Shown piece by piece: positions 7,331 through 30,206 of a stretch of DNA of 30,207 nucleotides; positions within the stretch are counted from its first letter, which is position 1; every line of letters starts with the position of its first letter. Origin of the DNA: a virus; IMG/VR virus record IMGVR_UViG_3300009504_000024, positions 1 to 30,207 of that record; one strand, given 5' to 3'. The notes beneath the pieces are model-generated. The model searched no databases and was not told the DNA's origin. It was given only the letters and a program-made list of their open reading frames with translations. The position numbers were made by a program, and so were the translations under genes.

Positions 7331-8596
7331 TTAGGCTACTAGGTCGCTTAGCCGCAGGCGCGACCCCGGACAGGTCGTGTCACCGTGCTGCTTGTGGATA
7401 GAGATAGTAACGCGCTTAACCCCCAGCAGGTAGTCGCGCAGCCAACGCCAAGACGCCATCTGCTTGCTCGTTGGGTAGGCCGCGTTGAAGTTCCCGGAGA
7501 ACACGACCCCCCAACTCCGCGGGTTGACCGCCGCGCCCGCGTGGGCGCCCCGCGTATAGATGCTGCGCCCCACCTCGATTAGACCGTCCCACCTAATAAC
7601 GAAGTGATACCCAATCGCAGCCCACGGCGGCGACTTCGCCCGGTGATATCGGTGGATTTCCATGGCCGTGGTGTCCCGGTGGACAGGCGCTCCGTTTCTA
7701 TCTTCGTCCCCCGTGTGGTGGACCACGATGGTGTCCACGTTATGCAGCGGCATGTGGTGGGTTTGAATGGAAACACCAAAACCCCCGCCCAGCCCCTCGT
7801 AGTCAGGACGACGAAAAACCGGAACACCCAAAAAGCCGGGGTCCTTCAGCACCGTGCGGATAGTATCAATGCCAATACAGAACCCCAGGCCCTCCAGCGC
7901 CAAGTGAACGAGCTTAGCCGAAGGGACGCCCGCTAGCTCGCCTCGTCTGTTCAGCGCCGCCCCGCCGCTGTTGCCGGGGTTGATGGCCGCGTCGGTTTGG
8001 ATTATCTGCTCAAACACGGCCCGATGGCCGCCCACGTTGTAGGAAAGCCCCCAGTCGGTCTTGGACACGATGCCGTGGGTCACTGTCCCTATGATGCCCA
8101 CGGGCGACCCGATGATGGTCAGCGGCTCCCCCACGCGCGGCTTGGTTTGCGCTAGCTGGAGCCGGGGTAGCTGGAGTCGGTTTTCCCCGATGTCGGCCCT
8201 TATAATCGCCAAGTCGCGCGTGGGTTCGCACCAGACCAGCGGCCCCATGGCGTAGCTCGGCAAGCCAGTGGACCAGTGTATGCCGTACATGGCCTCGTGC
8301 GTGCCGTCCTGGTTAAGAACCACGTGCGCGTTAGTCAGGATGTAGCCGCCTCCGATGCTGGAGCCGGAACCAAGCGCCCCGGTCCGCTCGTTGACTATCA
8401 TCACCACGGCCCGCTCCACTTCGGGTATGATGTCCTGTGGGACGTCCAGCGTCCGGTCATAAACCCGCAACGCCAGCACGGCGGCCTCGCCCCGTTTGAT
8501 TGGGTCCTCTGGCCGCAGGCTCCCGTCGGGGTCCCCCTGCAGCAGGCCCAGAGCGACCGCCCGTCTAAGTGCCTCGTCTGCCCAGTGGCTGTTCAT
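7331..8596 (-). CDS. Three-part lysin: SLH motif, trypsin-like protease, PGRP/amidase_2
   Basis: A 421-residue protein with three modules. Residues 5-48 form one S-layer homology motif (WADEALRRAVALGLLQG, DGSLRPEDPIKRGEAA), which binds secondary cell-wall polymer. Residues about 58-255 form a DegP/HtrA-like trypsin domain with the full triad: H91 in TNAHVV, D128 in TRDLAII, S210 in NPGNSGG. Residues about 288-420 form an N-acetylmuramoyl-L-alanine amidase of the PGRP type: HH293-294, Y330 in IGYHFVI, H404 and C409 in GDTTCPG as zinc ligands and catalytic residues. There is no signal peptide, so export through the holin is expected. The ATG has AGAAGGAGGG upstream. It lies between XhlA-like and holin genes. 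The protease may cut S-layer protein or process the lysin itself; this is inference. Confidence 0.92.
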   Translation of the reverse strand: MNSHWADEALRRAVALGLLQGDPDGSLRPEDPIKRGEAAVLALRVYDRTLDVPQDIIPEVERAVVMIVNERTGALGSGSSIGGGYILTNAHVVLNQDGTHEAMYGIHWSTGLPSYAMGPLVWCEPTRDLAIIRADIGENRLQLPRLQLAQTKPRVGEPLTIIGSPVGIIGTVTHGIVSKTDWGLSYNVGGHRAVFEQIIQTDAAINPGNSGGAALNRRGELAGVPSAKLVHLALEGLGFCIGIDTIRTVLKDPGFLGVPVFRRPDYEGLGGGFGVSIQTHHMPLHNVDTIVVHHTGDEDRNGAPVHRDTTAMEIHRYHRAKSPPWAAIGYHFVIRWDGLIEVGRSIYTRGAHAGAAVNPRSWGVVFSGNFNAAYPTSKQMASWRWLRDYLLGVKRVTISIHKQHGDTTCPGSRLRLSDLVA

Positions 8597-8928: not shown

Positions 8929-10680
8929 CTAGGTTCTGCTAACTCGCGCTATAAGCTGGGCGATGATGGCCTCTGGCGGTGGAGCGTAATCACCCAGAAA
9001 CAGCTCCGTCGTTCCCTCGTCGATGTTGTGCACCTTCTTGGCTATTGCCAGTGTGTGGCTCTCTCTCTCGGTTGGTGCGAGCGTACTCCGGTCCCGGTCC
9101 CACCAGCCCACGACGACCCTCTTGCCAAAAGGCATGGTGACGGTCAGCGCAATCGGCCCGGATATCAACACCGGGCGCGCCTGTAGCGCGGCCAGGGCCG
9201 CATTCGCCGTGGCTTGTGCCTCCGACTCCGTAGTGTCTGCGGGTACTCCCAGCCAGTAATCTATCTTGCCCGCGTCAGGCACACCAGCCGCCGCCGCCGA
9301 CTTGATGGTGCTGGTTTCTCCTATCCTAACCAAGACCCGATTGGGACGCGGCCCTAGCTGGTGTTGCCATTGTGGTTCTTGCACGAAGTACGCCGGGTCG
9401 GTGTACTTGAAGGACCACGTCGGCCCCCACTCGACCTCCGTACCGTCAACCCCCACGCGCCAGTACCACGGCCCGTCGTTGGTTCCCAGGTCAATCAGGA
9501 CCGCCGGGCGGTCCCCGGTGTCAACCCCCAGTACAGTATCCGTGTCGAAGTCCGCGCCGTCGAACGTGTTTACAGTATCCCACTCGAACACGATGTCCAC
9601 TGGCTCGTCCGCGCCCTCGTACGTTGCTGACAGGGTCGGGGTTCGAATGCCAACCAGGTCAACAGGCCGCGGGTCGGAAAACAGGGGCGGGACGTACTCG
9701 ACGACAAAGTAGGTGGTCAAGCGGTCCCAGGTGGCTGCGCCGTGGGTTGCTCCCCGCCAGGTTTCGGCATCCTCCAGCGTTTCCTGCATCAGGACTCTGG
9801 TGGCGTACTGCCCGGAGCCAGTACTGTCATAGGACCGATTGGGCAGCACGGACACGGCAACGAATGCCTTGTCCAGGTCCACAGGGTCAATCGTCCGGTC
9901 AACGGAGGTTGCTCTGGTGTCCAGGTCCGATTCGCTCTGCACCAGGATGTCCGGGTGCGCCACCACGAAGCCCCGCCCGGTGATTGTGCCGAGTGTGGTA
10001 TGGCGAACCATCTGTATATTGTCCGTTGCCGTGAACTTCACCTGGGCGCAGTGATAGCCCCAGGAGGTGCTGCTGCTCGAAGAACCCCGGAACGTACCGA
10101 CATAGAACGTCTTGTCCAGGTCCACCGCGGTGATGGCCACGTCCTCCGAAGAGCCAGTACAGGCGAACTCCACGGCCTGGACGGAGGCGCCTTCCCAGGT
10201 GACCACGTACCAGGACAGCTTCCCGCCGTAGTTGCCTGTCATCCTCCACTCTAGGTTCGTGTCCGATGTGAGCGCCAGGGTCCCGGTTTGGTATTCGGAG
10301 TTGCCGCTGCTAGATGGTGTAAACTGCCCCACCACGAACGTCTTGGCCCGGTTCACGGCGCTGATAGTGATGTCCATCGGGTTGGCGTTTAGCGTGGTTT
10401 CCCCCTGTTGGACCGTAAACTCATCGCCCCAGATGACCTCATAGGCGACAACCAGGGAGTCGGAGGTGGTCGTTTTCCAGAACGTGACTTTGGTGTATTC
10501 GTCGTTGACCACGGTGTTGAGCACCGCCGTAGCCCGGAATCTACTCCAGTCCGAAACGGTTGTGCTGGCTATGCAAGACGCCATGACCCATGACTTGCCC
10601 ACCGGGACCGGGGTGGCCAGGTCAACGGTGACGCTGTGATTGGTGGCGATAATCGTTGCCTTGCCCCGCTGTACCTGCAT
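8929..10680 (-). CDS. Tail fibre/receptor-binding-type structural protein
   Basis: A 583-residue beta-rich protein with no enzyme motif. The N-terminal half carries four to five repeated modules marked by a D-x-x-K-[TA]-F-V phrase (NRAKTFVVGQFTPS, DLDKTFYVGTF, DLDKAFVAVSV) after ITI/VAITAV strands; this recurring unit also occurs in other phage surface proteins. A fibronectin/Ig-like module follows at about 345-430 (TPTLSATY, FEWDT, GPWYWRVGVDG, EWGPTWSF), and the C-terminus is a mixed domain ending in a helix. The start is an ATG one base after the stop of the hub gene. Placed after the tail hub and before lysis genes, it is most likely a fibre or baseplate-tip protein that touches the host surface. 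Confidence 0.72.
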   Translation of the reverse strand: MQVQRGKATIIATNHSVTVDLATPVPVGKSWVMASCIASTTVSDWSRFRATAVLNTVVNDEYTKVTFWKTTTSDSLVVAYEVIWGDEFTVQQGETTLNANPMDITISAVNRAKTFVVGQFTPSSSGNSEYQTGTLALTSDTNLEWRMTGNYGGKLSWYVVTWEGASVQAVEFACTGSSEDVAITAVDLDKTFYVGTFRGSSSSSTSWGYHCAQVKFTATDNIQMVRHTTLGTITGRGFVVAHPDILVQSESDLDTRATSVDRTIDPVDLDKAFVAVSVLPNRSYDSTGSGQYATRVLMQETLEDAETWRGATHGAATWDRLTTYFVVEYVPPLFSDPRPVDLVGIRTPTLSATYEGADEPVDIVFEWDTVNTFDGADFDTDTVLGVDTGDRPAVLIDLGTNDGPWYWRVGVDGTEVEWGPTWSFKYTDPAYFVQEPQWQHQLGPRPNRVLVRIGETSTIKSAAAAGVPDAGKIDYWLGVPADTTESEAQATANAALAALQARPVLISGPIALTVTMPFGKRVVVGWWDRDRSTLAPTERESHTLAIAKKVHNIDEGTTELFLGDYAPPPEAIIAQLIARVSRT

Positions 10681-10681
10681 A

Positions 10682-12289
10682 TCAGCCCACCTGCCCTCGG
10701 ACTATAAGTGCAGTAGGCGCGTCCAGGTCCTCTGGCTTGACCAGAAAGACCACGCTATCGGTGGACCGGACCCAGAACACCAGACCATATTGCTCGCGCA
10801 GCTCCTTGGCTACATCCAGCGCCGTCTTGCCTAGTGCGTCTACTGGCCGCTCAAACCCGGTGGCCGCATTGACCCCCGCGCTGTCTAGCGGCTCGCAGTA
10901 CGTGTCCACTATCTCTTGGAACGTCAGCCCGACGTCCTGGCTTGCGTAGTCAGCCAGAACATACCGCTCGGCCAAGATGCTGTCCGGGAGCTTCACGAAA
11001 CAGGCGAAGTGATAGGGACCCACTCGCTCCGGGTTGCCCTGCATCCATCCCTCGTACTGCTCCTCGTTGCCCGCTGCATCACGCACGGCCAGTATCGTGT
11101 AGTCCCCGTCTGAGGGTAGCTCGGACTCGTCAACCACCAGCTCAAACTCCATGCTGCCCAGCTCGCCGTTGGTCGTTTCGGACACGCGGATGTTGATGGC
11201 GCGCCCGCTAAAGTCCACGCCACCGATGTCCAGCGCGTACCGGGCGTCCAGGGACAAAACCACCCGGAACTGCCAGTTGGTGCTCCAGGCCCCCCACAAC
11301 TCCGTGTCATCGTCCCAGGCCCTAACCCGCCAGTACCAACGACCCACAAGCAGGTCACCGTCTATGGAGTACCTGCAGCGCGCGCCAATGGGCGCCCCCA
11401 CCGCGGTTAGTGCCTCCCATGTCCCGCCGCCGTCGTAAGTCCAGCGGCTCTGGCTCGTTTTGGAGTCGTATTCGTCGTAAGTGACCATGTCGGGGTCCTG
11501 GCCAATGCGAACAGCCGGGAACCACGCGGTGGGTGAAATAAGCGGGTCGGGGTCTTGGTGTGCGATTTCCAGATAGACCCCGCTGGGTACCATACGCCCG
11601 TACGCCTCCGGAGCTACGTGCACTCCCGTTAGCGCGGGCGCGTAAGTGACCTCGATTTGGACGTCGGCTCGGTTACTGCCTGCGATGTTGTGAGTGACTT
11701 CGTTGCTAACTCCAGGCAAGAAGCTATCAGCCGGGCAGTCATACCATGCCGACTCCACGCCGTGGTTCAGTGTCCCGGTGAAGCTAGTTTCCTTGCCATT
11801 GACCGTGATTTTGGGGTTCTGGGTCTGATAGGTCGTGCTAGACTCCCAGTAGGCTGTGGCACTTGCCGACCAGCCCGTGATGTTTATACCGTGGAAGTTG
11901 CCATTGGCCGAGCTATTTGTGTAACCAGGCGACCAGTTGGTGTGCGTGTGCGAGCCGGAGGTTCCGGTCCCGCTGTTGGCGCTTCCAGTCCCGCCTGCGT
12001 TGCATGCTACATCCCACGACCCGCTAGACGCACCGGACATGGACGCGGCGCAGGACACCCTAGTTAGCGACCAGCCGCCGCCGGGACTCGATGGAATCAT
12101 GCTCTTGCTATTGAAGGTAGAGCCGCCACTGCCACTGTCCGAATCGCTTGTGGTCGTGGTGTTGGTCACCGTCCGTTGACGTCCCTTCCACCGAACCCGC
12201 GCGCTTATGACCTTCCCCTCTGGGACCACCACCTGGGTCTTTTGGCCGTTGCTGCTTATGTAAACCCAACCAGTATCAAGGACGGGCAT
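10682..12289 (-). CDS. Tail hub/tip protein with Gly-Ser-rich and fibronectin-like modules
   Basis: A 535-residue structural protein. The start is the ATG at 12289, sharing a base with the preceding stop (TAATG); the longer reading lies in the previous gene. Residues about 45-130 are rich in Ser, Gly and Thr (DSDSGSGGS, GGTGSANSGTG). A fibronectin-like module follows around 220-330, ending WYWRVRAWDD ... WGAWSTNWQF. The C-terminal 200 residues (NIRVSETTNGELGSMEFELVV, FQEIVDTYCEPL, ALDVAKELREQYGLVFWV) look like the domain of siphovirus tail-associated hub proteins that sits under the tail tube. Position directly after the distal tail gene agrees. The precise family is not certain. Confidence 0.7.
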   Translation of the reverse strand: MPVLDTGWVYISSNGQKTQVVVPEGKVISARVRWKGRQRTVTNTTTTSDSDSGSGGSTFNSKSMIPSSPGGGWSLTRVSCAASMSGASSGSWDVACNAGGTGSANSGTGTSGSHTHTNWSPGYTNSSANGNFHGINITGWSASATAYWESSTTYQTQNPKITVNGKETSFTGTLNHGVESAWYDCPADSFLPGVSNEVTHNIAGSNRADVQIEVTYAPALTGVHVAPEAYGRMVPSGVYLEIAHQDPDPLISPTAWFPAVRIGQDPDMVTYDEYDSKTSQSRWTYDGGGTWEALTAVGAPIGARCRYSIDGDLLVGRWYWRVRAWDDDTELWGAWSTNWQFRVVLSLDARYALDIGGVDFSGRAINIRVSETTNGELGSMEFELVVDESELPSDGDYTILAVRDAAGNEEQYEGWMQGNPERVGPYHFACFVKLPDSILAERYVLADYASQDVGLTFQEIVDTYCEPLDSAGVNAATGFERPVDALGKTALDVAKELREQYGLVFWVRSTDSVVFLVKPEDLDAPTALIVRGQVG

Positions 12290-12681
12290 TAATAAACCAC
12301 CCCGCCCGCGGTCTTCCACGTCGGCCTCGGACTCGGACACAAGAAGGTGACGTCGGCGCGCTTACGACCAGTCGGCGATAAATGCCAGCTCACTGGCCCG
12401 TACACCATGGCGTCTGCGTAAACCCAGGCATCGGTCCCCTCCGGTATCTCCAAATCGCCAATGACGCCACTGTCGAACAGAGCCGACAGCATCTCGTACT
12501 CGGCGTCGTCTTCGGCCTGGACCGTGGCGGTTATGAGTGCGGGCAGGCGCCCGTCTGGAATCGGCGCCAAGGCACCGTCGTATCCGGGCGGCTGAAAGAC
12601 AATCTGTCTGTACCCGCTCACCCGGACGGGTCTAGACGCCGTCGTAACCGATATCGGCTCGGTTGCAAAAACCCAACCCAT
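12289..12681 (-). CDS. Distal tail/baseplate small protein
   Basis: A 130-residue protein. It begins three bases after the tape-measure stop and overlaps the next gene by one base (TAATG). It contains RVSGYRQIVFQPPGYDG, LITATVQAEDDAEYEMLSALFDSG and DAWVYADAMVYGPVSWHL, a beta/alpha pattern seen in small baseplate-like proteins located after tape-measure genes. It is short compared with classical Dit proteins (about 250 residues), so it would supply only the N-terminal ring domain. The role is judged mainly from position and length. Confidence 0.6.
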   Translation of the reverse strand: MGWVFATEPISVTTASRPVRVSGYRQIVFQPPGYDGALAPIPDGRLPALITATVQAEDDAEYEMLSALFDSGVIGDLEIPEGTDAWVYADAMVYGPVSWHLSPTGRKRADVTFLCPSPRPTWKTAGGVVY

Positions 12682-20015: not shown

Positions 20016-21950
20016 CTAAAACGCCCCCACTATGTACTTGATGCCTAGCTTCAACATGATAGATACCAAAGACGGGCTGGGTTGGTACGGAAAGGCAATC
20101 TCCTTGATTAGACTCACCGGGACTCCCCCATGCATTTGAACCTCCGCGTACTGCCCGGTCAGGTGGTCCAACCCCAACGGCACGCCCGACTCCGTGGCGT
20201 CTGTTGCCGCGTCCTTCAACCAATTCAGCGGGTCCCCGTATGGGTTGTCGGCGTGATAATATCCTTTGTGTGCCTCAACCCAGGCAAACGCCCCCGGCTT
20301 GTTCAGCATGTGCGCGGTGGCTACCCGCTGCCCCTCTTTGCCGCCCCCCGCGGCTAGGCTATCACCCAAAGTCACGGTGGTCCGGTTGGCCACGGCGCCG
20401 CGGTCTATCTTGACCATGATTTTGCCGTATCCCTGCCCGTGCCAGGCAGCCGACTCGTCGTATAGCATGCCGTAAATGGGACGGTCAGCCGCCGGGAGGT
20501 TCTTCTCGGCACCGAACAGGCTCTGCTCGACATTGGTTCGAATCTCCGGGCTGTTTATCCCGCTTGAGGTGCCTGTTTCGAACTGGCTTTTCAGGCGCCC
20601 GCTGTCCAGTATCTTCTCGATGGTAGCCTCGTCCCTGTAGCGCACGATGATATCGGCCTTGTCGGTGACTTCCTTCAGGCGCTTGGTTACTTCGTTCTGA
20701 TACGCTGTCGGACTAAGGCCGTGGTTGGCGGCCCACTTATCCAGTAGCTGCCTTTCCCTGTCCCCGTAGACGCCCTTCATCGGGTACTTGACTTGCACCC
20801 GCGGCACGCCGGGAGTTGACGGGGTCACGGGCGGCTGTAGGGACAGATTCGCTCCTCCGGTGCCTGGTGTGCCTGTCATGTATCGTTCGCGGTCATACAT
20901 GCGGCGCCGCCCGGTCTGCTCGTGGAAGCTGGCACTCCGCTCGTTCCACTCGTCTGCTTTGGCTCTGGCCCTGGCCTTAGACTCCGGGGTCATGGCTACG
21001 GACTCGCGCCTGCGCCACTTCCGGATGTTGCGCTCCAGCTCACGCTGCCTTTGCCGCTCCTGGTAGCCCATGGGGTTTTGGGTCTGCTTCATGGGGAGCG
21101 TCAGTCCGGCTATGTACGGATTGACGTCGTGGGTGCAGTTGGGATGAAACAGCCCGTCCTCTATGGCCTCGGACAGAGTGCCAGCCACGTGCACCCCCTT
21201 GGGCAAACCCGCCGCGTGGTAGTCCCCCACGGCCAAAATCCGGCCCTCCCACGGCCTGCACAGAGGGCATTCGTCTGGACTGTCTGACACGATAACCAGA
21301 CTGCGCCCGCTCTCGGTTATCCGGGCGAGCTTGCCTTCCACGTGCGCCCTGGCCATGGCCGTCCGTGACGCCATTTCACAATAGGAACTTATTTCCCAGC
21401 GACGCCCGGCTTTGTCCATAAACCCCGATATGCCCATATCGGCCCATCGGTTAAGCGCGGCTTGCATGGCCTGCTTCCGGGTCATGGTCCCCACCGTACT
21501 ATGAAACACGGTGTCGGCTATCACGCTCCGATACCCGTCCTCCATAGAGCGCAGGATGTTGGCGTGGGTGCCATTCATCACGCGCATGGTTTCGGCGGCC
21601 AGCCGGGTTGCCGCCTCCGCGTTGGTCCTAAAAAACATGCTAGGATGCGTGGCCACCGTCCGAAGGGAAGCAAACGCCCCCAGGTCGCCCATGTACCCGG
21701 ACCCGTACGAAGCGACCACGGCCTTGCCCGTTGCGACGTTGACCTTCTGGAGTTTCGCTATCTCAGACAGAGCCTCTTTGCGCACCCGCGCGATGTCCCG
21801 GTGCTTCATAACCGCCCAGTGGCTCGTGTCCAGAGCCTCCAGACCACGCTGGTTGGCCAGACGCGCGGAGTACCGAAGCAGATATTCCTCAGACCGGGCA
21901 TACTGCCCCATCACCCACGCGCCCATCTGCTCTATCTGCTCAGGCCCCAT
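20016..21950 (-). CDS. Minor head protein (phage_min_cap2/MuF type) with enzyme-like C-terminus
   Basis: A 644-residue protein. Residues 1-300 match the minor capsid protein 2/MuF head morphogenesis group: helical N-terminus, then SSYCEMASRTAMARAHVEG, DECPLCRPWEGRIL and GLFHPNCTHDVNPYIAG, the Cys/His metal-binding core. Residues about 300-400 are a basic helix and a Pro/Thr-rich linker. Residues about 405-644 form an added domain with DIIVRYRDEATIEKIL, LKSQFETGTSSG, DRPIYGMLYDES and VANRTTVTLGDSL. The 'SQFETGTSxG ... RPxYGxL ... RTTxTxGDSL' series resembles DUF3626-like/ADP-ribosyltransferase-type domains fused to MuF proteins elsewhere; this is recognised from memory and needs profile confirmation. 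The start is ATG with GAAGAGGAA upstream. It likely enters the virion and possibly the host cell. Confidence 0.82.
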   Translation of the reverse strand: MGPEQIEQMGAWVMGQYARSEEYLLRYSARLANQRGLEALDTSHWAVMKHRDIARVRKEALSEIAKLQKVNVATGKAVVASYGSGYMGDLGAFASLRTVATHPSMFFRTNAEAATRLAAETMRVMNGTHANILRSMEDGYRSVIADTVFHSTVGTMTRKQAMQAALNRWADMGISGFMDKAGRRWEISSYCEMASRTAMARAHVEGKLARITESGRSLVIVSDSPDECPLCRPWEGRILAVGDYHAAGLPKGVHVAGTLSEAIEDGLFHPNCTHDVNPYIAGLTLPMKQTQNPMGYQERQRQRELERNIRKWRRRESVAMTPESKARARAKADEWNERSASFHEQTGRRRMYDRERYMTGTPGTGGANLSLQPPVTPSTPGVPRVQVKYPMKGVYGDRERQLLDKWAANHGLSPTAYQNEVTKRLKEVTDKADIIVRYRDEATIEKILDSGRLKSQFETGTSSGINSPEIRTNVEQSLFGAEKNLPAADRPIYGMLYDESAAWHGQGYGKIMVKIDRGAVANRTTVTLGDSLAAGGGKEGQRVATAHMLNKPGAFAWVEAHKGYYHADNPYGDPLNWLKDAATDATESGVPLGLDHLTGQYAEVQMHGGVPVSLIKEIAFPYQPSPSLVSIMLKLGIKYIVGAF

Positions 21951-21953
21951 GCG

Positions 21954-23447
21954 CTATTCCTCTTCTGCTTCGTATAAGACGCTCTCCGGGTTCGGCATGT
22001 CACCAATACCCAACTCGCTCCCTAGCTCCTGCGCTTCGTTTTCGACTTCCACTTCGGTCCACTCCGGGTGCGCCATGCGTATCTTGGTCCGAAGCGAAAC
22101 CGCCTGCGCGCGGTGCAGCATCTCTATCGTGTCGGCGGCCTCCTTGGGGTCCGGCACGACACTGTCTGCCATTTCGACTCTCGGACGCATGGGAGTCGCG
22201 CCGCCGTTGAAGATGGTCTTATCAATGACCAACATCAACTCCAGGACCTCCTCGGCGGCCCGGACGAAATATCCCTCTTTCTTCTGCCTGGTGGTTAGTG
22301 ACTTTCGCTCCCGGATGCGCAGCGCGGTCCCCGACTCCGCTCGACCCTCAATGCGAAGTCCAAACGACTGCGGCGAGTAACCCGCCGCACTTACGATGCG
22401 CTCAATCAAAGCCAGCATGGTCCGCTCATGCTCCTCAGCCCGCACCTCGAACTGACTTAGCGTCAGCCCGCCGTCCTTAGCAGACTGCGGGTCCATGTCC
22501 AGCGCCACAAACGCCTCCCGGTCAATGTCGAAAGAAAAACCCCCAGAACCGCGGCGCTCCAGGAACATGTCCGGCACGATGATGCGCCCCTGCCCCAGTC
22601 GAATGTCCCGAATCCAGGACGACATGACCTCGTCTAGCGAATCGAACAGACCCTCGGACGCTGCGTAGTCCGACTGGCCCAAAGAAGAGCCACGGCGCCG
22701 CCTGTTGGGTCGCATGTTGGGTACGTATCTAACCAGCAGGTCGTCTATGCCCGTTTGTACAGTGTCGGGCAAGTCCGCGGTTTCCGGTAGCGTAGCCATG
22801 GGGACGCGCCTGCCTATTTTGTCATCGGTCCCCCGATACAGAGCGTGCTCAATCAGCCCGCGGCTATGCCGCTCCAGGTGGCGCCAAACGACACCGCGGT
22901 CATCCTCCAGCACGACCCGCCAAAAGACCACGGACCGCAGAATGCCCCACCGGAAGTCCGGAATGGCCTGGTCTACTTGGCCCAGTGTCAGTATCGGGTG
23001 ACCCGCCAACTCCGTGTCCCAGTTGGGCTTGAGAAAAACCCCGCCCATGGCGGCGGCTACTTCGGCGGCCTCCAGGAACTTCGAAAAGACATCAGCGTCC
23101 TGCACTAGCTGGTCCAGGCGCGCCTGGGTAGCCCGGACGTCCGAGGACGCGTTGGCTTCGTCGGCACCTGGTATCACTATGGTGGGTGGCTCGGAGAAGA
23201 GCAGGTCCGCGCTGGCCCCCGCGATGTCTGCCGCCAGCGGCACGTGCACCATGGTGCGCCGCTCCTCTGCCACGCGCCGCGCCCAAAAGCGCCCGCGCTC
23301 GGTTGGAGTGAAAACCGCGCTCGAATAGACACTGGCTAGCTGGTTGGGGTCGCCCCCGTACCAAGCCGCGTGCTCCGCGTACTCATTGTACACGTCCGAC
23401 CACGCATCGGGTGGCCAGGGTATGTTTTCTGTCGGTAAAGCCAACAT
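21954..23447 (-). CDS. Portal protein (SPP1 gp6-like)
   Basis: A 497-residue portal subunit, twelve of which form the DNA entry ring. The start is the ATG at 23447 that overlaps the terminase stop (TGATG), with GGGGG eight bases upstream; an in-frame reading 13 codons longer lies inside the terminase gene. Seen: WPPDAWSDVYNEYAEHAAWY, VPLAADIAGASADLLFSEPP (typical early portal phrase), RWGILRSVVFWRVVLED, the stem-like GTALRIRERKSLTTRQKK and an acidic C-terminus. Position between large terminase and minor head protein is canonical. Confidence 0.92.
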   Translation of the reverse strand: MLALPTENIPWPPDAWSDVYNEYAEHAAWYGGDPNQLASVYSSAVFTPTERGRFWARRVAEERRTMVHVPLAADIAGASADLLFSEPPTIVIPGADEANASSDVRATQARLDQLVQDADVFSKFLEAAEVAAAMGGVFLKPNWDTELAGHPILTLGQVDQAIPDFRWGILRSVVFWRVVLEDDRGVVWRHLERHSRGLIEHALYRGTDDKIGRRVPMATLPETADLPDTVQTGIDDLLVRYVPNMRPNRRRRGSSLGQSDYAASEGLFDSLDEVMSSWIRDIRLGQGRIIVPDMFLERRGSGGFSFDIDREAFVALDMDPQSAKDGGLTLSQFEVRAEEHERTMLALIERIVSAAGYSPQSFGLRIEGRAESGTALRIRERKSLTTRQKKEGYFVRAAEEVLELMLVIDKTIFNGGATPMRPRVEMADSVVPDPKEAADTIEMLHRAQAVSLRTKIRMAHPEWTEVEVENEAQELGSELGIGDMPNPESVLYEAEEE

Positions 23448-24670
23448 CACGCCGCCCCCTTCTTGGCTGTCAACCACCGGGACCAAAGCAGCCGGAGTCC
23501 GTTTATGCCGTACCGCAGCGCGTCCGGCCCGTGGTCTTCTCGTTTCAGCGGCGCGTCTTCGCCGCGCTCTTGTGCTTTAGGGTCCCACACGTAGTTGCTC
23601 AGCTCCTGCACCGTAGCCTCCGCGCGTCGGTGGAATCGGAGCAGGTCGTTGCTCAGTAGCGTGGCTATGGACCGGATGCCGCCCAGGACCTCGTTGTCGG
23701 CGTCCACCACGTGCGGGACGTTGTCCCTCCATAGCTGCACCTGGAAGGATGCGGCGCTTGGGTCAATGAAAACCCGCCGCAGTTGCACCTGATGCTGGCC
23801 AATCCACCGCATAAACGCCCGGCTGTACTCGGTGTCTGTCATCTGTCGCAGCTTCTGTCGGCTGTCCCAACGCCACTCGTCCACTACGTACAAGCGCCCG
23901 TCTTTCCCCTCACCCAACAACAAAAAAACGCACGGATTGGTCGTCCCGTAGTCAATCGCCGCCCAGTATCGGTTCATGGCGGGCAGGATGTCCACCACGT
24001 GGCGCCGCGGGTCCAGCATGTCGTAGATGGCTCCCTCGGCCTGCACCCAACGACCCAGGACAAATCGCTGGTACCAAAGACCAACGTACTCCCGCTTAAG
24101 CGCGTTAACGAACGCCGGGGACAGGGACGGGTTGTCATCTAGCCGAAACCGGAACCTCCTCAGGTCCAGCTCGTCTGCCCGCTCCAGGTATTTTTTGTTT
24201 AGCCAGTGATGCGGCCCGTCTGGGTTGGTTGTACCGATTAACTGCGCGCCATCCAGGGACAGGCGGCTCAGCGCCATGGTGAAGAACGACTCCGGCCAGA
24301 GGGTCAGCTCGTCCCCGTATAGCTTCCGGAGAGTCAATCCGCGTATCTTGCCCTCGGCCCGCTCGTCGTTCGCCCCGGCCAGATAGACCACCTTCCCGAA
24401 CAAAATGCACTCGCCGCTTCCGGACTTCAGGTCGAACCGCTCCTCACCGACCAGGTCCCGAATGGGGTCCAGGATGTTCCTCTTGAGAGTGCGCTCGGTC
24501 TTGCCCACCATCATCAGCTCGCCGCTCTTAGCCTCCTTGACGGCCTTAAGCCAGCGCAGGAGGCTAGAGAATGTCTTTCCAGAACGGACCGCCCCGTCCC
24601 AGATGCAGATGCGGGCGGTGGATTGCTGAAAAGACCATAGCTGTTTGTTGCTCAACGGCACCAAAATCAC
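23447..24670 (-). CDS. Terminase large subunit (PBSX type)
   Basis: A 407-residue DNA-packaging motor and nuclease. Seen: Walker A GAVRSGKT (26-33), an adenine/lid region with MMVGKTERTLKRNIL, Walker B-like KLYGDELTLWPE with D120-E121, coupling motif LIGTTNPDGP, and the RNase H-like nuclease with D240 (AAIDYGTTNPC), D303 (FIDPSA) and D379/D383 (REDHGPDALRYG). Length is standard for the PBSX/SPP1 group. The start overlaps the small subunit stop (ATGA). Confidence 0.95.
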   Translation of the reverse strand: MILVPLSNKQLWSFQQSTARICIWDGAVRSGKTFSSLLRWLKAVKEAKSGELMMVGKTERTLKRNILDPIRDLVGEERFDLKSGSGECILFGKVVYLAGANDERAEGKIRGLTLRKLYGDELTLWPESFFTMALSRLSLDGAQLIGTTNPDGPHHWLNKKYLERADELDLRRFRFRLDDNPSLSPAFVNALKREYVGLWYQRFVLGRWVQAEGAIYDMLDPRRHVVDILPAMNRYWAAIDYGTTNPCVFLLLGEGKDGRLYVVDEWRWDSRQKLRQMTDTEYSRAFMRWIGQHQVQLRRVFIDPSAASFQVQLWRDNVPHVVDADNEVLGGIRSIATLLSNDLLRFHRRAEATVQELSNYVWDPKAQERGEDAPLKREDHGPDALRYGINGLRLLWSRWLTAKKGAA

Positions 24671-27660: not shown

Positions 27661-28113
27661 TTATCGGTTTTTGTCCCACGCCAGATGGACCCTGCGCACG
27701 TACGCGCCCACGCGCGGGCGGGCGGGTCCCTGGTTGTAAGCGGCCAGCCCCAGGTCCACACAACCGAATCGGTCAATCAACCCGGACAGATAGGCCGCCG
27801 CGGTTTCGATTTGGCCCGACACCCCGCCGCTCGTGTCATGGTACCTGGGATGGAGCTGCATCAGCCCGACCTCGCCCAATGCGCCAACCACGGCGGGGTT
27901 CATGCTCGACTCGACCCACGCCACGGCGTGCAGGATGCCGTCGGGCAGGCCATGCCGGACCTCCGCGGCTGTCAGCAGCTCCTCCAGCGTCGGTTCTTCC
28001 ACTCCGGTTATGTCCATCGGCTCGACATGGTCCACCCGCGGCGGCATCGAAACCGGGACCGGGACCGACACCCCGGCCAGGAACACCACCAGCGCCGTCA
28101 ATGCGGCCAGCAT
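27661..28113 (-). CDS. Exported or anchored SLT lytic transglycosylase
   Basis: A 150-residue protein. Residues 1-24 are a hydrophobic signal or anchor (LTALVVFLAGVSVPVPV). Residues about 42-150 form an SLT/goose-lysozyme-like domain: catalytic E68 in VAWVESSMNP, GLMQLHP (83-89) and AYNQGP (125-130). It cleaves peptidoglycan glycan strands. The ATG overlaps the stop of the fibre gene (TGATG), so it is coupled to a virion protein. That placement and the N-terminal segment suggest a cell-wall penetration or accessory lysis enzyme, distinct from the three-part lysin 19 kb away. Short for a transglycosylase, but all motifs are present. Confidence 0.88.
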   Translation of the reverse strand: MLAALTALVVFLAGVSVPVPVSMPPRVDHVEPMDITGVEEPTLEELLTAAEVRHGLPDGILHAVAWVESSMNPAVVGALGEVGLMQLHPRYHDTSGGVSGQIETAAAYLSGLIDRFGCVDLGLAAYNQGPARPRVGAYVRRVHLAWDKNR

Positions 28114-30206
28114 CAGCCCGGAAGCACGTCCACTTGGACGCGGCGCCTCAGGACCTTGTTAGTACCGTCGATGTTTACTGTCATCCACGCGTAATAGGTC
28201 CGGCCCGCTTCGTAGATGGCCTTGGTAGCGTCGAAGACAAAATAGACATCAGGAGCCACTATCTCGGTGACGCCGCTCTCAACCGCAACCCCCGCGCTGT
28301 CCCGGACCTCGTACGCCCCGGAGCTTATGGTGTAGCTGCTAGTCACTCGGCGGCTTACCGTGACGCCGATGTTTCTCTTTTCCCCCTTGATGACATGCCT
28401 CATTGTCTGCCCCTCCAGTATAAAGTCCGCGCGCAGCTCGTTCGCCAGGAAGTGCGGCGCCATGTCAAACAGAGCGAAGTCGGCGCGTAGCTCCGTCAGG
28501 TCCAACTGCAGGAAGACGAACTCGCTTACTAGGCGCCGGAGCGTGTCCGATAGGTACTCGGTGTCGGCTACAGCCCGCCGGAGTGCGTCCGCGGAGTAAA
28601 CCAGGTCCCCCAACACCGTGCGCAGCAGGTCCGCTCCGTACTGCCCCGCCTCGGCCAGGCGCCGGAGCGTGTCCGCGGTCCAGTGGCTTGCTTCGGTTAA
28701 CCGCCGGAGCGTGTCCGCGGCAAACACACTATCTGCCCACAAGACCCGGACCGTGTCGGCCCCGTACGCCACCGCCTCGACCACGCGGCGCAGCGCGTCG
28801 GCCTCGTAGGTCAGGTCCACCACCTGGCGCCGCTCCGTGTCGGCGCTGGTGTCTTGGTCAGCAACCAACCGCCGCAGCGCGTCGGCCACGAAGACATCAA
28901 CCAACCCCAGCTCCCGGAGCGTGTCCGCTCTGTATAGCTCGTCGGCAACCAAGAACCGGAGCGCATCGGCCCCGTAGACCGCATCAGCCTCCACGCGCCT
29001 GAGGGAGTCGGCCCCCAACACCATGTCCTCGACCACGCGCCGGACAGCGTCTACCGTGTGCACCATGGTGGCTGCCAACGCCCTAACCGCGTCCGCTGCG
29101 TGCTCCTGGTCTTGCTTCAGAACCCGGAGCGTGTCCGCTCGGTACGTGTCCAGGACCACCTCAATGAGAACCCGGAGCGTGTCAACAGCAAGAACCTGGT
29201 TGGCCGTTAGCCGCCTAAGTGCGTCGGCGGTCTGGCTTTGGTCTTGTATCAATGCGCGGAGCGTATCTGCCTCGTGCTCCTGCGACTGCGCCAAGGCGCG
29301 GAGTGTGTCTGCCCTGTGTAGGACGTCCCCCGCTAGCTGCCGGACTGCGTCGGCGCCGTGGCTCTGCGTTTCAACCACGGCGCGGAGCGCGTCGGCTACT
29401 TGGCTCTGGTCTTGCGCCAGCGCCCGGACCGCATCCCCCGCGCCCTGCTGGTCCTGCGCCAAAGCACGGACCGCGTCAGCTAGGTGCGCCTGGTCCTGGG
29501 TCAACGTACGAAGCGCGTCCCCCACGTGCGCTTGGGCTTGAGCCAGCCGCCGGAGCACGTCGCCGGGGATGCTTTGGTCCTGCGTCAGCCTCCGAACCGA
29601 GTCACCGAAGCCGCTCTGGTCTTGCATCAGCTCCCGGACCGCGTCGCTGAGGCTGCTCTGGTCCTGCACCAAAACCCGAAGCGCGTCCCCCGCGCTCGCC
29701 TGGCTCTGTGCCAGCGCGCGGAGCGTGTCCCCCGCGCTCGCCTGGTCCTGCGTCAGCTCCCGCAGCACATCCCCGGCATAGCTCTGCGCCTGGGTCAGCA
29801 CCCGGCTGGTGTCGGCTGGATAGGTGTCCTCCTCCTCCACGTGGGCAACGGACACGACCTCCGACCAATCCCCATACGCGCCCGATTCGTAGTGGCGGCC
29901 CCGGTAGTAGTAGGTCACGCCACCGCTGAACGGCCCCGCATTATCATAGGTGTCCGGGTCAGGGTCGTCATCGTACACCCGCGCCAAGAAGGTCCATGTG
30001 CCTTCGCTACCCTCTCGCCACTCCAGCTCTACATGGTCTGCGTAGAGGATTGTGCGCCTGGTGTCTGCCGTGTAGGTCTGGTCTTGGACCAGCCTGCGCC
30101 GGGTATCTGCTGGATATTCGTCCGGCTCCGGCTCAACCTCATACTCTAGCTCAATGGCACCCGGTGCGCCTGCGCCGCCTGCGTTGTTCCCGCCGCCCGA
30201 ACGCCT
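28113..30206 (-). CDS. Fibre-like protein with 14-residue tandem repeats (5' end outside window)
   Basis: The reading frame is open to the right edge; 697 codons are visible and the start lies outside. Order seen: a Gly-rich stretch, two 14-residue repeats (30130-30040 region), a fibronectin-like module (LEWREGSEGTWTF ... YGDWSEVVSVAHV), about 31 tandem repeats of the form [AG]-D-x-[LV]-R-x-[LV]-x-x-x-x-x-x-x (28509-29816), two ELRADF phrases, and a C-terminal Ig-like domain (ISSGAYEVRDSAG, GRTYYAWMTV). No catalytic motif. The repeat region is probably an elongated shaft, so a tail fibre or surface spike is the best guess. It sits far from the other tail genes and is coupled to an SLT enzyme. 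Confidence 0.8.
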   Translation of the reverse strand, partial: RRSGGGNNAGGAGAPGAIELEYEVEPEPDEYPADTRRRLVQDQTYTADTRRTILYADHVELEWREGSEGTWTFLARVYDDDPDPDTYDNAGPFSGGVTYYYRGRHYESGAYGDWSEVVSVAHVEEEDTYPADTSRVLTQAQSYAGDVLRELTQDQASAGDTLRALAQSQASAGDALRVLVQDQSSLSDAVRELMQDQSGFGDSVRRLTQDQSIPGDVLRRLAQAQAHVGDALRTLTQDQAHLADAVRALAQDQQGAGDAVRALAQDQSQVADALRAVVETQSHGADAVRQLAGDVLHRADTLRALAQSQEHEADTLRALIQDQSQTADALRRLTANQVLAVDTLRVLIEVVLDTYRADTLRVLKQDQEHAADAVRALAATMVHTVDAVRRVVEDMVLGADSLRRVEADAVYGADALRFLVADELYRADTLRELGLVDVFVADALRRLVADQDTSADTERRQVVDLTYEADALRRVVEAVAYGADTVRVLWADSVFAADTLRRLTEASHWTADTLRRLAEAGQYGADLLRTVLGDLVYSADALRRAVADTEYLSDTLRRLVSEFVFLQLDLTELRADFALFDMAPHFLANELRADFILEGQTMRHVIKGEKRNIGVTVSRRVTSSYTISSGAYEVRDSAGVAVESGVTEIVAPDVYFVFDATKAIYEAGRTYYAWMTVNIDGTNKVLRRRVQVDVLPG
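28509..29816. repeat. About 31 copies of a 42-base repeat within the fibre gene
   Basis: The DNA repeats every 42 bases (one 48-base unit), encoding 14-residue units. Asp at position 2 and Arg at position 5 are present in nearly every unit. Units near the N-terminal end share QDQ at positions 9-11, while later units share VAD or VED and an aromatic residue, suggesting two expansion blocks. Confidence 0.9.

Follow-up and report, generated by a model that had tools for sequence, protein, structure and literature searches.

Variable-length spacer repeats are already known, as a kind, from phage adhesins. Among viral fibres, the adenovirus-type triple beta-spiral is a short-period shaft of variable repeat number, built from a repeat of ~15 residues with a conserved Gly/Pro turn. 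The triple-stranded beta-helix of T4 gp5 is a phage shaft built of short repeats that can be altered in number, and it carries an N/D ladder and salt bridges (PMC4576200). Tentaclins have DUF6273, a C-type-lectin-like domain, at the N-terminus; one to four Ig/Fn3 domains follow, and the Ig domain at the C-terminus is the proposed virion anchor (PMC10743442).

We analyzed a 30,207-base virus record from IMG/VR (IMGVR_UViG_3300009504_000024, apparently a fragment; hereafter, the window), in which one gene encodes a long array of 14-residue units with Asp at position 2 and Arg at position 5. The new element is the repeat itself, for which the only database home that we found is a PHROG of unknown function; no description or name of a 14-residue D..R phage repeat was found in the open-access literature. 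Unlike the triple beta-spiral, the array has a period of 14, with Gly at no more than 8% and Pro at no more than 4% at any position in 392 units. The YadA-type left-handed beta-roll, with its 14-residue repeat of the NSVAIGxxSxAxG type, fits the period, but the array lacks the NSVAIG/Gly pattern. The T4 gp5 repeat is eight residues long (VxGxxxxx), whereas the array has no conserved Gly or VxG; we cite gp5, despite its different repeat, as an earlier example of a phage shaft lined with ladders and salt bridges (PMC4576200).

In layout, the likeness to tentaclins lies in an N-terminal binding domain, an elongated spacer and a C-terminal Ig-like domain, as we read the array protein, and one array-bearing relative (L203) carries the tentaclin DUF6273. 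The window protein differs in having one Fn3-like domain and a 31-unit array in place of the Ig/Fn3 spacer, its N-terminal domain lies beyond the contig, and its C-terminal domain is Ig-like by predicted fold (pLDDT ~65-88). BppU_N (PF10651, baseplate upper protein domain) ends the L203 protein, and at the level of fold the window C-terminal domain is similar to BppU-type models; it is, however, C-terminal rather than N-terminal, its sequence does not align to the BppU_N of L203, and the window protein has no match to Pfam BppU_N at E up to 1. The PHROG that holds the same 14-residue D..R repeat, phrog_24491, does so at profile positions ~28-191, and its C-terminal two thirds are a different domain where the window has the Ig-like one. 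L204 matches phrog_24491 end to end (E 2e-273) and L227, L019, L003, L048, L198 and L200 match it in part; the window protein gave no match to it at E up to 1.

The array-bearing gene is a 5'-truncated minus-strand ORF that runs in from the window end (30206). Its features and the adjoining gene, in window coordinates, are as follows.

27661..28113, minus strand: SLT lytic transglycosylase gene (PF01464, E 1.3e-12), whose start overlaps the array-gene stop by one base
28113..30206, minus strand: array-bearing gene, 697 aa visible, with the stop at 28113, the 5' end past the contig and the ORF open at the window end
28116..28424, minus strand: C-terminal Ig-like beta-sandwich domain, predicted from AlphaFold2 (pLDDT ~65-88) and Foldseek
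28425..28508, minus strand: transition segment after the array, QLDLTELRADFALFDMAPHFLANELRAD, read from the sequence
28509..29816, minus strand: main array of 31 units of 14 residues (42 bases), D2 and R5 fixed, from a D..R scan
29832..30026, minus strand: Fn3-like domain, flanked by the isolated pair of units and by the main array, from BLASTP to the L039 domain
30027..30110, minus strand: two isolated 14-residue units, ADTRRRLVQDQTYT and ADTRRTILYADHVE, at residues 34 and 48, from the D..R scan
30165..30206, minus strand: possible end of a Gly-rich domain, SGGGNNAGGAGAPG, read from the sequence

The Gly-rich stretch at the contig end is the likely cause of an assembly break. Contig L050, the sole close relative, shares 99.991% identity with the window across 11,189 bases and ends where the window does, to the base; because these two near-identical contigs share one end base, the N-terminus of the array protein is unseen, and for the same reason L050 is uninformative on copy number. 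An assembly break plausibly explains the shared end, which may alternatively be the true genome end. The Fn3-like domain has 27.5% identity to the domain preceding the array in L039 (E 2e-4, single-pair BLASTP), had no Pfam match, and appears as low-confidence strands in the AlphaFold2 model. Short-repeat segments analogous to the transition segment also follow the array in L003, L026, L055 and L042. The C-terminal domain, a candidate virion anchor, matched Ig-like folds in PDB and, in BFVD, small phage proteins, with 'Baseplate component' and 'BppU domain' models, in Foldseek searches that used the whole low-confidence model and were informative for this domain only. The C-termini of L003, L043 and L190, candidate Ig-like domains as well, gave a weak profile match to it (hhalign E 3e-4, probability 40%). 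The SLT gene also matches PHROG families of lytic tail (fibre) protein and transglycosylase.

Translation of the minus strand and a listing of every D..R gave 33 genuine units in the 697-aa protein, two isolated and 31 in the main array (residues 132 to 567; window 29816-28509). A preliminary description had counted about 33 units with D2 and R5 in the visible gene, had placed the array at 28509-29816, where exactly 31 of the 33 lie, and had called the 42-base spacing near-exact, which holds for every step except one of 16 residues (48 bases; residues 342 to 358, ~29139-29186). The 100% fixation of D and R follows from the design of the scan, but the 14-residue register does not: the longest unbroken run is 16 units, whereas none of 2000 residue shuffles went beyond 3, and a four-unit, in-register DNA pattern matched 20 times in the window and never in 100 dinucleotide shuffles. 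Since Asp is encoded by two codons in the array (GAC/GAT) and Arg by four (CGG/CGC/AGG/CGT), D2 and R5 are kept by constraint at the protein level and not by recent DNA copying.

Two sub-types of unit had been reported, with the suggestion of two rounds of expansion. The sub-types are present, as Q/D-rich units 3-20 and V/aromatic units 21-33, but we reject the two rounds, as the unit-identity matrix is gradual and nothing dates the sub-type blocks as rounds. The highest DNA identity between any two window units is 76%, and unit similarity drops gradually from 0.57 at lag 1 to ~0.50 at lags 13-15, a pattern that fits an origin of the window array by old, continuous, repeated local duplication.

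The repeat family was assembled from three pattern scans of IMG/VR and a subsequent profile search; the scans required D..R, and the D/R conservation across the family is therefore partly by construction. Of 63 IMG/VR contigs that hold three or more in-register units, ~60 look genuine, several of them near-duplicates of one another; the count is approximate because L028, L194 and L249 look like unrelated repeats. By the xD[TA]xR definition of the family, at least four consecutive 14-residue D2/R5 units, the window contributes 31 + 2 units. Members carry from 4 units (L019, L015) to ~69 (L043), on contigs that span 25% (L200) to 62% (window) GC. A profile built from 15 array segments found L203, L204, L222, L227, L229, L039 and L196 outside its training set (E ~1e-12 to 1e-30), and L050 scored E 3e-111 with a profile built in part from window rows.

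The window array had no meaningful match in sequence searches of Pfam, PHROGs, NCBIfam or PDB. We took weak tape-measure, SMC and designed-bundle matches of the window protein as compositional, and a PDB profile search with 61 aligned rows returned only matches of coiled-coil composition. Searches by tblastn found nothing with the window protein in INPHARED phages and PLSDB plasmids, or with the L026, L003, L048 and L204 proteins in phages. In a pattern scan of GTDB genomes, almost all of the matches listed were low-complexity or heptad-like repeats on arbitrary frames, and we rejected them. A profile search of ~400 Bacillota genomes gave two matches: L254, which is genuine and has the same architecture as L204, and L255, rejected when a frame check showed a low-complexity frame only.

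Relatives differ by whole units, as a unit-by-unit DNA alignment revealed. In one clade the array has 26 units in L026, 29 in L005 and 22 in L055, and one unit present in L008, L005 and L055 is missing from L026; the relatives are metagenome assemblies, and ambiguous bases in L005 and L202 call for caution over single-unit differences there. The cleanest case is the clade with 24 units in L040, 24 in L027, 22 in L060 and 21 in L013: at one of the deletions, L013 carries the unit NDILRVLLNSDILN, which agrees at 42/42 bases with a chimera made from a pair of L060 units, the better single parent matching at 40/42. At the L026 deletion a chimera also beats either parent, imperfectly (38 vs 36 of 42). 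Adjacent near-identical units were found in L026 (41/42) and L202 (40/42). These observations bear out two earlier proposals, that the array grows and shrinks by recombination and that copy number varies among related phages; a change in fibre length would be the presumed physical consequence.

Partner domains differ widely among the relatives. LamG lies N-terminal to the array in L227, L019 and L229 (Pfam), and Fn3-like N-terminal partners occur in L042, L039 and the window (by alignment; the similarity of L042 is weak). In L203 (2-1693), DUF6273 is followed by ten 14-residue units and a C-terminal BppU_N (Pfam; BppU_N E 7e-7). On the same strand as the window array gene, further on, are structural genes of siphovirus type, for portal, minor capsid, HK97-type capsid, major tail protein and tape measure; L196 contains a tape measure, and tail-protein and tail-fibre PHROGs are matched in L040 by the gene that lies upstream of the array gene. 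Gene neighbourhood and domain partners thus both back the fibre or virion-surface context first suggested for the array. No reverse transcriptase, which bears on a DGR hypothesis, was found in nine virus records (the window and eight array-bearing relatives, L203 among them), some of which are fragments.

We propose, with a probability of roughly 0.6, that the gene product is a modular virion-surface adhesin or tail-fibre protein in which the array serves as a variable-length spacer. We read the array as a spacer mainly because L203 has the tentaclin layout with ten 14-residue units replacing the Ig chain, and the adhesin reading is supported because the partner domains (LamG, DUF6273, BppU_N) suit adhesins. 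The array would form an elongated, stiff or semi-stiff spacer between the N-terminal part and the C-terminal Ig-like domain, each unit adding one structural step. The N-terminal part (the Fn3-like domain and whatever lies upstream) is presumed to be the host-binding tip, and the Ig-like domain probably anchors the protein on the virion; the tentaclin-like layout of L203 suggests, by analogy, an anchoring role for the C-terminus. Salt bridges probably join the invariant Asp and Arg, either inside a unit or from one unit to the next, and also from chain to chain should the shaft be oligomeric; such bridges may build a continuous ladder that tolerates variation at other positions. With interchangeable units of 42 bases, unequal recombination could add or remove whole units in frame, and reach, if set by unit number, could change fast without disturbing tip or anchor.

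More tentatively, and at somewhat less than even odds in our judgement, the xD[TA]xR unit may represent an unrecognised fibrous fold, a stackable, salt-bridge-laddered and interchangeable ruler, employed by diverse phages between tips and Ig-like anchors, whose length evolves by whole-unit recombination; that the 14-residue unit is a new fibrous fold is a possibility. As to its form, a beta-rich shaft, probably oligomeric, seems to us more likely than a coiled coil. Across the family, hydrophobic residues of the V/I/L type occupy positions 7 (80%) and 13 (71%), polar residues (K/R/N/S/T/D) positions 9-10, and small residues positions 1 and 3. Among steps of 15, 16 and 17 residues, those of 16 are the most frequent, and units of these lengths often show an alternation of hydrophobic residues (DTLRNVTLITVVVIQ). 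In most members the propensity for strand is higher than that for helix, and L204 has a G+P content of 10%, the highest value. The window array itself stands at the helical end of the family (Pa 1.09, Pb 1.02), which counts against a beta shaft.

The principal competitor, which we consider unlikely, is an alpha-helical coiled-coil shaft of two heptads per unit, with L4/L7 and positions 11/14 as a/d, oligomerising like phage fibre stalks. An AlphaFold2 monomer of 8 window units (61 rows) came out as a single 110-residue helix at pLDDT 77, but with pTM 0.29 and pLDDT ~25 in three of the five models, and the whole-protein monomer (10 aligned rows) instead yielded one 9-10-residue strand per unit in the first half of the array (pLDDT ~50-58) and a meaningless extended chain in the later half. 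Both runs were monomeric, and an oligomeric shaft may be out of reach that way. The composition of the window array (rich in A, L, Q and R), some 3.5-residue hydrophobicity power (0.21) and the weak PDB matches to designed helical bundles and coiled-coil proteins all point toward helix, as does the D2-R5 spacing, an i,i+3 acid-base pair of the sort that helices favour. Despite that periodicity, positions 11 and 14 proved polar or mixed in the heptad a/d register check, and homologous arrays are rich in V/I/T/N, with the strand bias and Gly/Pro content noted above. Position 14 holds Asn, Gly or Pro, and the frequent +1, +2 and +3 insertions in relatives break the heptad phase. Disorder or some other state of the array is improbable.

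If the protein were instead a decoration of the head (Hoc-like), or a virion-surface adhesin of another kind, and not a tail fibre, the array would be a spacer on the capsid; to this explanation we give about one chance in four. The N-terminal part of L203 matches phrog_10993, 'Hoc-like head decoration', and a comparison with Hoc-like proteins has been drawn for tentaclins, which share this layout (PMC10743442). The window gene lies upstream of the terminase and not directly after the tape measure, which favours this explanation and counts against our best reading. Against it stand the occurrence of the array in phrog_24491 proteins, or ones of the same layout, in L227, L019, L222 and L204, the position of the L040 array beside the tail-fibre and tail-protein PHROGs, and the 'Baseplate component' among the BFVD matches of the window C-terminal domain. 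That the array is non-mechanical, each unit binding a host surface polymer or wall with unit number tuning avidity, is doubtful: an invariant charged pair amid variable residues, the varying unit number and the adjoining lytic transglycosylase gene would suit it, but relatives already have dedicated binding domains (LamG, DUF6273) on the N-terminal side of the array, the searches matched it to no known binding repeat, and the spacer position between domains is constant.

Under the spacer reading of the adhesin, the array would be a simple length-tuning system that works in 42-base steps and leaves tip and anchor untouched, in phages that must fit adhesin reach to capsules, S-layers and wall thickness. 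The repeat occurs in dozens of viral contigs across the GC range given above, with quite different partners, and we found neither a named family nor a solved structure for it; such a structure would annotate a PHROG family of unknown function and could supply a length-programmable protein shaft.

Elsewhere in the window, the terminase and portal genes (21954-24670, minus strand) are nearest to those of Streptomyces phages of the Raleigh/Picard type, with ~42-53% identity in the best matches. A lysis-type protein (7331-8596, minus strand) combines S-layer-homology, trypsin/HtrA-like protease and Amidase_2 domains, an unusual fusion, and its SLH domain may suggest that the host bears an S-layer. 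The host signals differ: the terminase and portal are Streptomyces-phage-like, whereas the SLH domain of the lysin is more typical of other Gram-positives. Two large proteins (552 and 583 aa; 8929-12340, minus strand) that follow the tape measure had no Pfam or PHROG match and are candidate tail-tip proteins. The minor capsid protein (20016-21950, minus strand) has a C-terminal stretch like DUF3626 (E 6e-6, under the Pfam cut-off).

Three features of the relatives were noted in passing. The array proteins of L026 (1295-3412), L005, L055 and L202 carry, judged by eye, N-terminal LRR-like repeats (SLTSLDVPDTSGLTSVGNYFM...), the number of which also differs among relatives. In L204 (1231-3684) and L254, the 14-residue array comes after a second repeat, (T)AYISWxPxGxIxxxP, which in L204 interrupts the array as well. 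Three unrelated contigs (L040:11038-11433, L196:10519-10938 and L190:9108-9596) have a small phrog_23562 gene (of unknown function) shortly upstream of the array gene.
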